DNA of 29,835 bases. Source: a virus. Numbering within the stretch: position 1 is the stretch's first letter; each line of letters opens with the position of its first letter. Shown one piece after another: positions 3,275 to 21,419 of this stretch. The stretch covers positions 1-29,835 of IMG/VR virus record IMGVR_UViG_3300047378_000206. The stretch is one strand, 5' to 3'. Below the pieces are notes generated by a model. The model searched no databases. It saw only the letters and a program-made list of their open reading frames with translations, and was not told the origin of the DNA. The translations under genes were made by a program, and so were the position numbers.

Positions 3275-5433
3275 TATTTTATTTCCTGTGGTGCGCGAGT
3301 GTAAGCAGGATATGCGTCAGTGTATTGATAATCAGTAGCTAACGCATCTTGACCAACTTGTTTAATGCGTTCTTTTTCAGATTTTAACATAGCCTGATAT
3401 TCGTCTGTAGGATTCCACCGATTAAACACAGCCCCATCCTCTGCAATAAAGCTAGGCCGCAATAACGTCCCGTCTTTTGTTAAAATCATCACTGAATAAT
3501 CTGGCGCACCTTTAACGGCTAACCTTGATGTAATATCATCACTTTGCAAAAAAATACCTTCTTTTTCAAACTCAATTCCTTGCTCGGCATACTCCTTTTG
3601 TAGCGCGTTGTAAATATCGTCTTTGATATACTCTACACTTCCATCAACAGTGTAGTATAATTCTGGCGCGTTTCTCATTAAACCAAAGCTAGAGTTAGTC
3701 CAGTTTGCTTTCATGTTAGACATAGCCTTGCTTTTAGCGCCCTCTTCGGTACTGCCTGCTAGGAAGTAAGACTCTACTAGTTCTTTGTAGTCAGCAACCA
3801 TCTGACTTCCACCAATAGAATTAGAATCAAAATCTTGAAACCAGCCTGTAAACTCACTTTCAATCTCGTCAGCATATTTCTTTTCAAAAGACTTTTTATT
3901 GTCTTCAATATATTTTTTCCTACTCTGAACCATAGAAGCATTAGCAGGATTGGTTTGATCGTTCGCGTTAGCTATTGCTTTTTCTGCGTCTAAGTATTCC
4001 ATATTAAATGTTACTTGTTCAGCAAAAGCCGTTTCTCTAGGAGTAAACTCATTTCCCATTCCTGCAATTTGCAAAATCCTATCCATAGTGTTGGCGGCGC
4101 TTTTAACTAAAGCCCCATTGCCACTAACTAAATTGTTACGCAACTCTGTTTTCATTGCAGTAGGAACGTAGCGAGTACCCTCTACAATATTTGCTTGCAT
4201 AACCTCCCTGTCCATAGGATCATCAGGCAAAGCAGGGAAAATAGTTTCATAGTAATCATCTACCGCACCTTGAGTTAAAGGCTCTGTAGTAGGATTGCCG
4301 TTTATAGCCGCCATAGTGTTGCTAATGTTTTTTTGCTTTGTTATGTCAGCAGTAAATTGTGTGTTTACATAATTGCGATATTTTATTAATTCTTCTTCTG
4401 TAGATATCAAACCTTCTTTAAACATAGCATCAATTTCAGCAAACGCATCTTCAGAAGATATATTCCCTTCTTTAATGCTTTGCACTAGATTAGCTTTTTT
4501 AAGCATTTCTTCGCTAGATAATTGATTTTGCTCCGCAGTATATTGCTTAATTTTATCTTGCACTTTAGCATTTACCGTCTTTACTAAAGCATCTTTTTGT
4601 GCAGAGTTTAAGTCTGGAATATCTGATTTTATAAGATCAGAAACAAATTCTTCGCCTTTTTTAATTTGCTCTAAAGGATCAAGTGATTCATCAAAAATTG
4701 TTCTATCTAATTGTCCTAATACAGCTTGTTTTGCAACATCATCATCAATAGCCGCTTTTTGCTGTTCAGCGTACAAAGGAGTAATAACACCGTTTTTTAT
4801 AGCATTTTCTAAATCAAAAAATAATCCTAACTTTGCTTCTAAAGCTTCTTCCTCGTTACCGTTTCTAGTTAAATGAGAAATGGTATCTTTAGAAACCTCT
4901 AAGCCAGCTTCTAAATCGCCTCTTTGCTTGGCAACAATGCTTTTCTGTGTTTGATCATTAATTGGCTTTGCGTACTTAGAGTTTCTCTGTCTGTAAAATA
5001 AATCTACATTTGCTTTTACTGATTCTGGAGCTTTAGACGTTAATCCCTCAAAAGCCGCATCTGCAAGTTTTTGATAGCCTTCAATGTTATCAGGATTGTT
5101 TTTGTACGCATTAAGCATAGCTTCGTCTAAGTCTACTTTTAGATTTGCCTCATACGTAGCCACAGCAACAGAGTTATATGCTTGGGAACCCCAAGCTAAC
5201 GGATCTCTTTTCTTTAACTCCTCGCCTTCTTTTGCCGCCTTTATAGCGTCCTTAGCCGCCTGATCAGGAGCTAACTCTGTAGCCTTAGCCTTTCCAAACT
5301 GTTCAGCAACACCTGCTACAGTCTCTCCTAAGCCTGCTAGAGCCTGCATACGCCTAGCCGCAGAGTCATCTACCCCAGTAGGGCGAAACTCTCCGTAAGA
5401 TAGAATACGTTGTTGTCTAGGTTGTTTAGCCAT
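3274..5433 (-). CDS. Internal virion protein, T7 gp15-like position (719 aa)
   Basis: A large, soluble, strongly helical protein rich in Ala, Glu, Lys and Asp, with no membrane segment and no enzyme motif that I can see. It lies between a small membrane-like virion protein and a very large protein, the same small-medium-large order as T7 gp14, gp15 and gp16, which form the trans-envelope ejection channel. I therefore infer a periplasmic ejectosome component. It overlaps the upstream gene by 8 bases, and its stop overlaps the start of the next gene, so the three are probably made together. A structural role is likely, the exact equivalence less certain. Confidence 0.65.
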   Translation of the reverse strand: MAKQPRQQRILSYGEFRPTGVDDSAARRMQALAGLGETVAGVAEQFGKAKATELAPDQAAKDAIKAAKEGEELKKRDPLAWGSQAYNSVAVATYEANLKVDLDEAMLNAYKNNPDNIEGYQKLADAAFEGLTSKAPESVKANVDLFYRQRNSKYAKPINDQTQKSIVAKQRGDLEAGLEVSKDTISHLTRNGNEEEALEAKLGLFFDLENAIKNGVITPLYAEQQKAAIDDDVAKQAVLGQLDRTIFDESLDPLEQIKKGEEFVSDLIKSDIPDLNSAQKDALVKTVNAKVQDKIKQYTAEQNQLSSEEMLKKANLVQSIKEGNISSEDAFAEIDAMFKEGLISTEEELIKYRNYVNTQFTADITKQKNISNTMAAINGNPTTEPLTQGAVDDYYETIFPALPDDPMDREVMQANIVEGTRYVPTAMKTELRNNLVSGNGALVKSAANTMDRILQIAGMGNEFTPRETAFAEQVTFNMEYLDAEKAIANANDQTNPANASMVQSRKKYIEDNKKSFEKKYADEIESEFTGWFQDFDSNSIGGSQMVADYKELVESYFLAGSTEEGAKSKAMSNMKANWTNSSFGLMRNAPELYYTVDGSVEYIKDDIYNALQKEYAEQGIEFEKEGIFLQSDDITSRLAVKGAPDYSVMILTKDGTLLRPSFIAEDGAVFNRWNPTDEYQAMLKSEKERIKQVGQDALATDYQYTDAYPAYTRAPQEIK

Positions 5434-16769: not shown

Positions 16770-16797
16770 TTGCGATATGTCAAGATAAGAGTAAGAT
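16770..16797 (+). promoter_or_regulatory. Possible promoter of the small-gene early operon
   Basis: TTGCGA (16770-16775) and TAAGAT (16792-16797) are 16 bases apart and would start transcription close to 16804, shortly before the first ribosome binding site. Both boxes are imperfect. An alternative -10 is TATATA at about 16736-16741. Confidence 0.35.
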
Positions 16798-16826
16798 AGA
16801 TACCACACAAACAGAGAGGTAACAAC

Positions 16827-17000
16827 ATGACAAACTTAGATATGGCAAAAGAAAACATCAGCAAGAGAATAGAGTACTTTACTAAGGAGGCAGTTAAACA
16901 AGGTTATGGCAAGCGAATTAGTGAGAACACAATGAACTACGTCTATGGATTAAAAGAAGCCTTAGAGATGATTGAGTGGGCTGAATTAGAATCTGAGTAG
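16827..17000 (+). CDS. First small protein of the plus-strand early operon (57 aa)
   Basis: ATG follows AGAGAGG with ideal spacing. The protein begins MTNLDMAKENISKRIEYFTK and ends in an acidic 'ALEMIEWAELESE'. It is predicted to be all helical. No family is recognised. It leads a series of seven short plus-strand genes. The stop codon is directly followed by a folded intergenic element (17001-17047). Confidence 0.65.
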   Translation: MTNLDMAKENISKRIEYFTKEAVKQGYGKRISENTMNYVYGLKEALEMIEWAELESE

Positions 17001-17047
17001 TTAAATAGGTAGCATTGGAAACAGTGCTACTCATTGTAACTATTTAA
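17001..17047 (+). ncRNA. Structured intergenic RNA element: stacked helices with GAAA loop
   Basis: Starting at the base after the stop codon, TTAAATAG (17001-17008) pairs perfectly with CTATTTAA (17040-17047). Directly inside is GTAGCATTG (17009-17017), loop GAAA (17018-17021) and CAGTGCTAC (17022-17030), nine pairs with one G-U. The only unpaired part is TCATTGTAA (17031-17039) on the 3' side, giving 17 pairs with a nine-base one-sided bulge and a GNRA tetraloop. No T-run follows, so it is not a normal terminator. It fits an mRNA-processing or stability element, or a protein-binding RNA. It does not match a self-cleaving ribozyme core that I know. Confidence 0.7.
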
Positions 17048-17066: not shown

Positions 17067-17279
17067 ATGACAATTAAGACAATATTTGACCCACTATCTG
17101 CCAATATAAAGGAATCTAAGCGTGCCTACGATATCGCATGGCTTGGACTGTTAAATTATAAAGGTAGCGACAGCATGGAAGTAATCGCGCTAGAGAACGC
17201 TTTACAGTGTGCCTCCGATAATTGCCTAAATGCTTACAAGGCGTTCGATAACACTTATTACGCTTTACCTAAGGGCTAA
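17067..17279 (+). CDS. Small early protein (70 aa)
   Basis: ATG is preceded by GAGGTAA. A helical protein with aromatic residues ('YDIAWLGLLNYKGSD' and 'NALQCASDNCLNAYKAFDNT'), two Cys and no known domain. Its last codons (AAG GGC TAA) contribute GGG to the outer helix of the following hammerhead ribozyme, which begins three bases after the stop. Early phage proteins of this size often modify host functions, but nothing specific can be said. Confidence 0.65.
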   Translation: MTIKTIFDPLSANIKESKRAYDIAWLGLLNYKGSDSMEVIALENALQCASDNCLNAYKAFDNTYYALPKG

Positions 17280-17282
17280 TAA

Positions 17283-17335
17283 CTTACCTGATGAGACTAT
17301 AGGGGTATAGTCGAAACGCCTACGGGCGTAGTAAG
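17283..17335 (+). ncRNA. Hammerhead ribozyme, type I
   Basis: All elements of a hammerhead are present in order. Stem I 5' strand is CTTAC (17283-17287), then the core CTGATGA (17288-17294). Stem II is GACTATA, loop GGGG, TATAGTC (17295-17312), seven perfect pairs. Core GAAA follows (17313-17316). Stem III is CGCC, loop TACG, GGCG (17317-17328), with a UNCG tetraloop. U at 17329 pairs with the last A of GAAA, and A at 17330 is the cleavage residue. Stem I closes with GTAAG (17331-17335). Predicted cleavage is between 17330 and 17331. Outer GGG (17273-17275) and CCC (17337-17339) may extend stem I beyond an internal loop, the element that contacts loop II in fast natural ribozymes. With stem I open-ended it is type I. 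Cleavage would leave a 34-base leader on the next gene. Confidence 0.93.
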
Positions 17336-17364
17336 ACCCAATAACATAATAGAGGTAATACAAC

Positions 17365-17598
17365 ATGAAAGCGATTCAAATCAAATATTTATCAGCAACC
17401 GACACCAAAGGATCACGTTGGAAAGCATGGACTGAGGCAGGGTCAATGACCGTTGGCTATAACTACGCTTTAGACCCTAAAGAGAACGCTTTGGCACTCG
17501 CTACTGCATATTGCAAGAAATACGATTGGGCTATGCCTAAGGGCATCGGTTCAATACCTAATGGTGATTACGTAGTTACATTGGAGGCGACAACATGA
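17365..17598 (+). CDS. Small early protein downstream of the ribozyme (77 aa)
   Basis: The ATG follows AGAGGTAATACAAC. The sequence looks like a small alpha/beta fold: 'KAIQIKYLSATDTKGSRWKA', then 'ALALATAYCKKYDW' and a final strand 'GDYVVTLEATT'. Similar short phage proteins beginning with 'I.IkYl..Td.rGsR.kA' occur next to each other in many phages, but their role is not known to me. Cleavage by the hammerhead would place its mRNA 5' end 34 bases before the ATG. The stop overlaps the next start as ATGA. Confidence 0.7.
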   Translation: MKAIQIKYLSATDTKGSRWKAWTEAGSMTVGYNYALDPKENALALATAYCKKYDWAMPKGIGSIPNGDYVVTLEATT

Positions 17599-18306: not shown

Positions 18307-18333
18307 AAGCCTCCATTATGGGGGCTTTTTATT
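18307..18333 (+). terminator. Terminator of the early small-gene operon
   Basis: AGCCTCC (18308-18314), loop ATTAT, GGGGGCT (18320-18326) forms seven pairs with one G-U, followed by five T and ATTT. It ends the plus-strand operon and overlaps the end of the convergent metallophosphoesterase gene. The opposite strand lacks a T-run after the stem. Confidence 0.85.
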
Positions 18334-19096
18334 TCCCTTCGTATTTGTTCCTTAGGTAGTCAAGCGACACCATCATAACATCCCCTGAGCCGTCATTAAC
18401 TTCGTGCAACATCCACACGCCACGCCATGACAAGTTATTATGCGGGGTAAGATAATTCTCTTCATGTTGGTAGAATATCCCTGCAAATATTCCGATCATT
18501 TGTTTGCCATCTGCACGTCTTGCAAAACTAATAGCCCTGTCTTGAACATGGCCCTGCACTGTACTCATGTGCATTTTGTTTAACATCAAAGTGGGGTTAG
18601 CTACTGGTCTCCCCATTATTCCACTGGTAAAGTAGTGTTGGTAGGCAATGTTATCTATGACTACGCATTCCAAAAAGCCATGCACCTCCCAACCCATTTG
18701 CTCAAGCTGAAAATCTTTAAACCCTATCAGCCCATCAAGCATGGGATCATCTTCAATCGCGCGTGTGATTCTGTTTTCATGGTTGCCTAACGTGAACACT
18801 AATCTAGGGTTCCACTGCTTGTGCTTGTTTGCCTTCAACCTTTTTTGCTCTGCCCTGATAGGTGCAAGGAATTTCTGCATAGCTTCGATGCCTGCGTCTA
18901 TGTCTTTAGAATACCGCCTACCCTCAAATGATTTCTTGCCCTTGTCGTATGACGAAAGAGATTCCATGTCCCAATGGTCTCCGCAATGCACAATAACATC
19001 GGGTTTCTTTTCTGCCGCGTATTTCCCTGCCCATGTCAAATGGTCAGTCGGTGTATTGGGTTTAACTTGAGTATCTGGAATAATAAAATGCTTCAT
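18329..19096 (-). CDS. Calcineurin-like metallophosphoesterase (255 aa)
   Basis: Motifs of the family appear in order: D8-T-Q10 (a Gln replaces the usual His of DxH), G39-D-H-W-D43, G104-N-H-E107, H154 in 'YQHYF' and H183 in 'QGHVQ'. These residues bind two metal ions and cleave phosphodiesters or phosphomonoesters. Substrate is unknown; phage members of this group are often found among recombination or DNA-metabolism genes. Its ATG is only 8 bases after the T-run of a terminator, with GTGAGG as ribosome binding site, so expression would need readthrough or antitermination. Confidence 0.85.
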   Translation of the reverse strand: MKHFIIPDTQVKPNTPTDHLTWAGKYAAEKKPDVIVHCGDHWDMESLSSYDKGKKSFEGRRYSKDIDAGIEAMQKFLAPIRAEQKRLKANKHKQWNPRLVFTLGNHENRITRAIEDDPMLDGLIGFKDFQLEQMGWEVHGFLECVVIDNIAYQHYFTSGIMGRPVANPTLMLNKMHMSTVQGHVQDRAISFARRADGKQMIGIFAGIFYQHEENYLTPHNNLSWRGVWMLHEVNDGSGDVMMVSLDYLRNKYEGK

Positions 19097-19948: not shown

Positions 19949-20239
19949 TTAAAAAGGAATATCTTCAGAGGGTAACTCAGCCACTTGAGGCTTATCCATA
20001 GAAGATTGGCCGCCATCAGTGTAGAAAACCTTAACATTACCCAAGATAGGAGTCTGGACACCTTTCTCTCGCTCTTCTTTGTCTATAGACTGACTGATAA
20101 AGCCGTTGTTCTCATACTGGTCAGCAACCATAGTGTCTACAAACGTAGTGAGATCAAGGTAAGTACCCTTTTCTCCCTTGTATAGCCGCTCTTTGTCGAT
20201 CTTTGTTACATCAATTCTTACTGATAATCCTACTTTCAT
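19949..20239 (-). CDS. Single-stranded DNA-binding-like protein (96 aa)
   Basis: The sequence begins KVGLSVRIDVTKIDKERLYK, with 'GTYLDLTTFVD', 'NNGFISQSIDKEEREKG' and 'ILGNVKVFYTDG', a beta-rich OB-like layout. It ends in PSEDIPF, the acidic tip with terminal Ile-Pro-Phe that bacterial SSB proteins use to recruit partners. This family lies next to ERF and YqaJ genes in phages and is taken to be their SSB. The start overlaps the exonuclease stop (ATGA). Confidence 0.75.
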   Translation of the reverse strand: MKVGLSVRIDVTKIDKERLYKGEKGTYLDLTTFVDTMVADQYENNGFISQSIDKEEREKGVQTPILGNVKVFYTDGGQSSMDKPQVAELPSEDIPF

Positions 20240-20847
20240 TTTAAATTCTCCGTTTCATTAATAATAATATCAACAGCTTTTTGTACTTCAGCCGCCAACT
20301 TCTCTATGTACTCGTCATCTCGCTCCACCCTAATAATTAGGTAATGAGGCTTTTTGTCAGAGTACGCCATTAAATCCCACCACTTAGCACCTGTAATCAT
20401 CATGCAACCCATGATTTGTTGCTTGTACTTAGTAACAAAGGACTTATTGTCTCTATGATAGCCTACCATGTTAGCAGGACATTTTATCTCTAGCCCTCCC
20501 TCAAAATTGCCATCGCTATCTTTAATAATACCATCTGGACTGCAACCAAACTCCTCAGAATCGTCCAATATAAACCCATATTCTGTGACTTTTTGCTCAG
20601 TTATGAATGAATAATATTCACGCGCTTCAGGCTCTAAAAAACTACCGCGAGCCATGTGCTCATTCACGTAAACAGGGACGCGAACACCATTTAACCTTTC
20701 ATCTATCAACTCATCAATGTATTTTGCAGAAGAGATGCTTGGCTTCCCTGCGGAGGTAATCAGCTTGTTAAACATGGAAGCAGAGGGTCTACCCAATCTT
20801 GAGGCAAACCACTCGTCACTTCCTTGTTCATGGTCTAAGATTATCAC
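20236..20847 (-). CDS. YqaJ/lambda-exonuclease-like recombination nuclease (203 aa)
   Basis: The PD-(D/E)xK nuclease motifs are all visible: 'ARGSFLEPEAREYY' (E72/E74), 'GCSPDGI' with D105, and 'LEIKCP' with E120 and K122. These resect double-stranded ends 5' to 3' for annealing by the neighbouring ERF protein. Length (about 200 aa) is typical. The start is GTG at 20847, overlapping the ERF stop as GTGA, and the stop overlaps the SSB start. The three together form a complete single-strand annealing recombination set. Confidence 0.92.
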   Translation of the reverse strand: MIILDHEQGSDEWFASRLGRPSASMFNKLITSAGKPSISSAKYIDELIDERLNGVRVPVYVNEHMARGSFLEPEAREYYSFITEQKVTEYGFILDDSEEFGCSPDGIIKDSDGNFEGGLEIKCPANMVGYHRDNKSFVTKYKQQIMGCMMITGAKWWDLMAYSDKKPHYLIIRVERDDEYIEKLAAEVQKAVDIIINETENLK

Positions 20848-21419
20848 TTATTAGCCTTAGCATTCAGTGCCGCTACAGCTTTAGAGTAGTGGACAGCTAA
20901 CATATCATCCACTGAGGTTGCTTTGAAGTGCTTTAGAAAGACTTTAACATCTACTTTATGCTCTTCTATTAGCCCTTTGATCTCTTTAGCCTGATCGCCA
21001 GACACTACAGCATTTTTACTCTGGTTATTCCTAATCATTGCCGACTCTGCATCATCATCAGCAGTTGGTATACCTGCGATAGACTGCAAAGCGTATCGTC
21101 TTGCGTAAGTAATGGCGCTTCCTGCCGCTTGTGGATCAGCTTTAGTTGTGGGTAGTGTGTAGCTATGCTCCAAATACTCTCCAGATTCATGCATTAATAA
21201 GGTTGATACACCAATTCTACCATCGTCATTCGTTGGAAACTGAGTGTAAGACAGACCATGATTTGCAAACGGCTCTTTAATGGCCTTAATGACTGAAGTT
21301 AGATCAGCATAATCAGACTTAAAGAATGGATTTTTACTATCCTTAACTGCACCGCCCATTTCTGCTTGTGCTTTGCATAAAGATGCCGCTAGATTTTTAA
21401 TTGACTCGCTCGTATTCAT
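20844..21419 (-). CDS. erf: ERF-type single-strand annealing protein (191 aa)
   Basis: The family signature is clear: 'KSDYADLTSVIKAIKEPFA' near the N-terminus and 'DPQAAGSAITYARRYALQSI' followed by 'AGIPTADDDAE'. ERF proteins (as in P22) anneal complementary strands and circularise or recombine the injected genome. The C-terminal 60 residues are a separate helical part that is variable in the family. The start overlaps the preceding gene as ATGA; the end overlaps the exonuclease start. Confidence 0.93.
   Translation of the reverse strand: MNTSESIKNLAASLCKAQAEMGGAVKDSKNPFFKSDYADLTSVIKAIKEPFANHGLSYTQFPTNDDGRIGVSTLLMHESGEYLEHSYTLPTTKADPQAAGSAITYARRYALQSIAGIPTADDDAESAMIRNNQSKNAVVSGDQAKEIKGLIEEHKVDVKVFLKHFKATSVDDMLAVHYSKAVAALNAKANK

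Follow-up and report, generated by a model that had tools for sequence, protein, structure and literature searches.

The sequence at 17283-17335 is a complete type I hammerhead ribozyme, predicted to be self-cleaving. It lies within a virus record that was analysed over a stretch of 29,835 nucleotides (IMGVR_UViG_3300047378_000206, positions 1 to 29,835; called the window here). The hammerhead is situated between two small genes and has the same orientation as both. It probably functions as a constitutive mRNA separator carried in a swappable gene cassette. The window contains podovirus-like structural genes, which encode a head-tail connector (PF12236), a major head protein, tail proteins and an internal virion protein. 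The features surrounding the hammerhead are listed in Table 1.

Table 1. Positions of the hammerhead, its parts and the neighbouring features in the window
Feature	Position	Strand	Remark
57-aa ORF, first gene of the + strand group	16827-17000	+	stop TAG 16998-17000
E2, conserved intergenic hairpin	16999-17041	+	overlaps stop TAG of 57-aa ORF, precedes 70-aa ORF
Upstream 70-aa ORF	17067-17279	+	stop TAA 17277-17279, second TAA 17280-17282
Type I hammerhead ribozyme	17283-17335	+	base-by-base reading, covariance model, covariation
Stem I	CTTAC 17283-17287 / GTAAG 17331-17335	+	
Core, CTGATGA	17288-17294	+	
Stem II, 7 bp	GACTATA 17295-17301 / TATAGTC 17306-17312	+	
Stem II loop, GGGG	17302-17305	+	putative 5' half of pseudoknot (17303-17305)
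GAA	17313-17315	+	
Stem III	ACGCC 17316-17320 / GGCGT 17325-17329	+	loop UACG 17321-17324
Predicted cleavage point, after A17 (17330)	17330/17331	+	position in hammerhead fold
CCC in 3' tail, +7 to +9 past the cut	17337-17339	+	putative pseudoknot partner of stem II loop; sequence evidence
34-nt leader of downstream mRNA after predicted cut	17331-17364	+	Shine-Dalgarno-like GAGG 17352-17355
Downstream 77-aa ORF, PHROG 3199, function not assigned	17365-17598	+	start ATG 17365
Terminator-like hairpin with T run, end of gene group	18307-18335	+	consensus match only
RecE-like exonuclease	20236-20847		
Erf-like annealing protein	20844-21419		

All of the core positions of a type I hammerhead are in place (C3 U4 G5 A6 N7 G8 A9, G12 A13 A14, the A15.1-U16.1 pair and H17). 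Stems II and III are closed by loops and stem I is open at its 5' and 3' ends. The base-by-base reading agrees with an earlier note on this DNA, which had described a mismatch-free hammerhead of type I topology in sense orientation between the two genes, and had placed the cut and the length of the resulting leader as in Table 1. The one adjustment concerns stem III, whose parts are all present. The note's four base pairs and separate U-A core pair are counted here as a single stem of five, with the A15.1-U16.1 pair (A17316-T17329) included. The cleavage residue is A or C in nearly all relatives. RNAfold, which cannot model a pseudoknot, leaves stem I out of the minimum structure of the strand alone, and the fold stability of the ribozyme (z -1.4) is uninformative when taken alone.

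A scripted finder that demands the hammerhead core with stems no shorter than 4/4/4 bp returned one match in the window, compared with 0.007 per random sequence of equal dinucleotide composition. The expected count for the fixed motif pattern is 0.00. Rfam, at its gathering cut-offs, reports nothing in the window. The best Rfam model at the site is RAGATH-1-hammerhead (RF03152), with 21.0 bits against a cut-off of 56.3; core and stem order are the same, but the upstream hairpin of the model is not formed in the window, where stem II has 7 bp. Hammerhead_1 (RF00163), the family with which the earlier note had proposed to check the site, gives 12.7 bits at the same place and thus stays under its cut-off of 34, with all core positions and the type I stem order alike. 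This silence says little about the site, because Rfam likewise missed all the hammerheads of eight other phage loci, which are rich in them. The cut-offs are simply strict for phage hammerheads, which they pass over. A covariance model of the relatives, built on 13 sequences with that of the window among them, finds the site with 86.3 bits (E 3.9e-24), the next best place in the window reaching 10.6 bits.

The relatives come nearly all from metagenomic contigs, in which genes were called by simple ORF rules. Viral contigs were scanned with a wide DNA pattern, CTGATGAGAC...GTCGAAAC, that makes no demand on stems I or III. Both stems, at 4 bp or more, are completed in 67 of the 101 distinct matches that have enough flank, compared to 0.7% when the flanks are shuffled. 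Among the remaining matches, several are hammerheads whose stem III is shaped differently, and some resemble type III. A tight scan (loop GGGG, 7-bp stem II) yielded 22 contigs with 13 distinct sequences, including that of the window, in one register. The core is intact and all 17 stem pairs are kept in each of the 13. Two-sided compensatory changes, the covariation for which the earlier note had asked, were found in 7 of 20 pairs and are distributed across stems I, II and III. None of 500 shuffles gave as high a count, nor did any slid alignment, a comparison that overstates independence because the aligned sequences are related. Judged from this alignment, the hammerhead is passed on by descent with its structure intact. 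The subfamily pattern had no match in the genome contigs searched, and the ribozyme had none in the phage-record collection searched.

The triplet CCC that follows stem I is invariant in the 13 family members. The earlier note had paired it with GGG 17273-17275 in an outer stem, through which terminating ribosomes would govern the folding of the ribozyme. That GGG accompanies only one upstream gene, shared by the window, L045 and L098, and is absent from relatives with other upstream genes, so that the outer stem was dropped and the proposed control, which depends on it, is unsupported. The occurrence of the upstream GGG with one upstream gene only also makes the GGGG loop of stem II the most likely partner, and GGG 17303-17305 would then form a pseudoknot with CCC 17337-17339, bringing the stem I side into tertiary contact with loop II. 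In the close family the search pattern fixes the loop as GGGG, so these pairs cannot vary there. When the loop was left free, 69 distinct hammerheads of the same geometry were obtained, and in 47 of these diverse phage sequences the loop II triplet pairs fully with positions +7 to +9 past the cut. The pair types include GGT/ACC, GGG/CCC, GAC/GTC, GAT/ATC, GCT/AGC and GGC/GCC, among others. Full pairing is seen in 12 of 23 distinct triplet combinations (3.7 expected; at most 10 in 5000 shuffles, the sequences being related). Much of the GCG/CGC group is explained by a one-base shift. A broader test without a fixed register had the same outcome.

The placement relative to genes recurs among the relatives. 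Among 101 distinct phage hammerheads, 64 combine a stop codon at stem I with a Shine-Dalgarno-like motif and an ATG located 12-70 nt past the cut; the same combination is seen at 1.1% of random same-strand positions and at none of the 101 ribozyme sites when the opposite strand is read. Leaders have a median length of 35 nt, and the Shine-Dalgarno-like motif is present in 96 of the 102 relatives in which a downstream start exists. The window hammerhead has the sense-strand, between-gene placement of phage gene-separating hammerheads, presumably on one transcript common to both genes. L025, L037, L088, L093, L104, L131 and L141 carry CTGATGAGAC..GTCGAAAC without a downstream stem III; most of these lie directly 5' of a Shine-Dalgarno-like motif and ATG, and several are type III-like.

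The occurrence of several ribozymes close together is a frequent trait of such phage hammerheads, not an obligatory one. A single one is found in the window, where E2 occupies the preceding intergenic gap. Two are present on the L003 contig, and on contig IMGVR_UViG_3300025704_000035 a 3.2-kb stretch (L277, 37272-40447) contains five type I hammerheads that differ from one another, each between genes. The second hammerhead of the L003/L128 contig, at 4836-4897 (-), occupies the slot of E2. A U-U replaces the usual G-C at 10.1/11.1 of its stem II and the rest is intact, which makes this copy a natural test of that position.

In related phages the near-identical ribozyme of about 60 nt has upstream neighbours from about a dozen gene clusters and downstream neighbours from nine. 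The end of the window's upstream gene precedes three different downstream genes (window, L045, L098), and the DNA 5' of the ribozyme in L045 is 96.5% identical to that of the window. The PHROG 3199 gene stands behind two different upstream genes, and a gene beginning MKL..GSNQTELD behind at least five different upstream sequences. In L126 the flanks have no detectable similarity to the window and the ribozyme is unlike the window's only in the stem III loop. In L090 the hammerhead directly follows a gene end resembling a homologue of the 57-aa ORF. The 70-aa ORF has no match in PHROG or Pfam. Distant relatives of the 77-aa ORF lie near a genome end in T7-like Pseudomonas phage records, and the gene may be an early one, as the earlier note had called it.

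A strict tie between the ribozyme and the downstream gene family was considered and rejected, the hammerhead preceding that gene only in L002-L005 of 23 homologous loci. In the ribozyme-less loci the same gene has another hairpin, or nothing recognisable, before it, and since the gene thus occurs without the ribozyme, the ribozyme is not essential for it. In L006 the PHROG 3199 gene is 95% identical, the hammerhead is missing and a hairpin of the E2 kind takes its place. A third kind of hairpin, with AT-rich outer arms GTAAATATAT ... ATTATATT, occupies the same slot upstream of the PHROG 3199 homologue in L007, L008 and L009.

E2 (fold z -4.6) is present in the window and in L006, L045, L114, L116, L147, L224-L226, L228, L231, L233, L235, L266 and L267. 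Its lower stem, AGUUAAAU/AUUGUAACU, which the search pattern itself fixed for the most part, hardly varies; the upper stem is compensating, and the hairpin has an AUUUAAA tail, with an ATG about 20 nt past the conserved tail. In nine sequences, four upper-stem pairs have two-sided changes; this count was matched by 155 of 500 shuffles, but none of them equalled E2 in covariation score or in the number of such cells. Matches to the upper-stem pattern outside the phage group were mostly unrelated hairpins and were set aside. A comparison of E2 with Rfam gave no match even at E 10. E2 and the hammerhead share the slot between stop and start and are interchangeable in the relatives, which fits a common separating job. 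Three gene families occur behind either element, and five loci are arranged as E2 - gene X - hammerhead - gene Y, gene X coming from four families in all and gene Y from three. In phage T7, RNase III processing hairpins between early genes split the early polycistronic mRNA. E2, likewise intergenic, could by analogy be of that kind; it may be an RNase III site, a processing signal of another kind that has gone unrecognised, or a novel self-cleaving RNA. The hammerhead differs from the T7 hairpins in that it would cut itself, no host enzyme being needed.

The following mechanism is proposed. A three-base-pair pseudoknot between loop II and the 3' tail would keep the hammerhead in its active fold, and the mRNA of the small-gene operon would be cut between the two genes during transcription. 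Processing of a polycistronic mRNA, as put forward in the earlier note, thus appears likely. A 2',3'-cyclic phosphate would terminate the upstream message, whose 3' end would consist of the stable hairpins of stems II and III. On the downstream side, the message would begin with a 5'-hydroxyl, followed by an open leader, whose predicted fold is weak (-5.2 kcal/mol), and the ribosome-binding site. The likely gain would be the separation of neighbouring genes, with the stability and translation of each made independent. The ribozyme would be one part of a gene-plus-separator cassette, since its DNA stays constant while the flanking genes change. A wider proposal is that this phage group uses interchangeable RNA separators, hammerhead and E2, as fixed borders between which genes are swapped. 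It is tentative and falls a little short of being probable. If it is true, each newly acquired gene comes with its own mRNA processing site. The shuffling could result from recombination at the repeated separators, and movement of the separators themselves is another possible source.

The repeated DNA might instead serve as a recombination anchor for swaps of small genes, with any ribozyme activity incidental or secondary. This is unlikely. Near-identical stretches of some 60 nt between many unrelated gene pairs are what such an anchor would look like, and the phage encodes RecE-like and Erf-like enzymes, which are able to recombine short homologies. However, a pure anchor would keep bases rather than pairs, and here the stems change by compensation with pairing maintained at 100%; the same slot is moreover filled in other phages by unrelated hammerheads of different sequence. 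Being a good recombination site could nevertheless account for part of the ribozyme's conservation. A regulated switch, in which terminating ribosomes or a ligand set the folding and tie cleavage to upstream translation, is distinctly improbable. It would be in keeping with the two stop codons immediately 5' of stem I in the window, and with the stop codons that end inside the CUGA core (the UGA of CUGAUGA) in 26 distinct phage hammerheads and, in another 20, lie 5 nt ahead of it. This spacing is accounted for by compact packing after the stop, though, the outer stem is not conserved, and the 53-nt motif has no aptamer-like extension. A constitutive separator is likelier than an on/off switch because the ribosome-binding site and start codon lie outside the ribozyme. 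A ribosome on the stop codon could momentarily mask the 5' strand of stem I.

There is very little probability that the hammerhead is a decayed or inactive copy kept by descent. Imperfect copies do exist elsewhere, such as the second one on the L003 contig, but the intact core and complete pairing in 13 of 13 distinct sequences, in spite of sequence change, argue against decay in this family. A chance match can practically be disregarded: the window has 19 occurrences of the core motif CTGANGA alone, yet the complete motif is expected so rarely, and stem completion, pseudoknot pairing and the covariance-model score so exceed their shuffled or background values, that chance is hardly credible, and the covariation in relatives already refutes it.

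Hammerheads between phage genes, and the class with a loop/tail pseudoknot, have been known since 2011. As the earlier note stated, such ribozymes occur in phages and bacteria: Perreault et al. (2011, PMC3088659) described types I-III from phages and prophages, where a single gene is often flanked by several of them. The pseudoknot was described as common and important for speed; clustered bacterial and prophage hammerheads were active in vitro and one triple array in E. coli, and 4 of 18 consensus-conforming hammerheads were inactive when assayed (PMC3088659). In an early-gene case, that of halovirus HF1/HF2, a transcript ends within three nucleotides of the hammerhead cut site; processing of long phage RNAs was proposed, and the flanking genes were said not to be constant (PMC3088659). 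A 2017 review regards the role of prokaryotic hammerheads as still open and notes the link to phages (PMC6155905). The window hammerhead shares with the 2011 set its type I topology, consensus core, predicted pseudoknot between the regions of stems I and II, and proposed part in phage RNA processing; clusters in that set flank single genes in prophages. It differs in that its subfamily scores below the Rfam cut-offs, is without a match in the phage-record collection searched, is near-identical between many gene pairs and is interchangeable with a non-hammerhead hairpin.

Constant separators with exchanged genes, and an interchangeable E2, were not found in the open-licence papers searched; they may have been described elsewhere. 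The SAS/ESAS repeats of Cluster K mycobacteriophages are likewise repeated intergenic elements before the starts of different gene families, some with inverted repeats and none with a ribozyme, but they mostly keep to the same gene families, whereas in the group of the window one gene can stand behind either element (PMC3203893). The theta ribozymes of gut phages are also small self-cleaving ribozymes in phage genomes, but have an HDV-like fold and are linked to tRNA (PMC10879173). The present subfamily offers a clean comparison of one ribozyme between many gene pairs, and of one gene behind a hammerhead or another hairpin, through which the proposed separation of mRNAs can be tested directly. 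A ribozyme that stays constant between changing gene pairs also marks sites of gene exchange.

The leader of the first + strand gene in the window, at 16786-16829 (GTAAGA..CCACACAAACAGAGAGGTAACAACATG), is close to the tail that follows the hammerhead in L147. It is possibly the remnant of a lost ribozyme.
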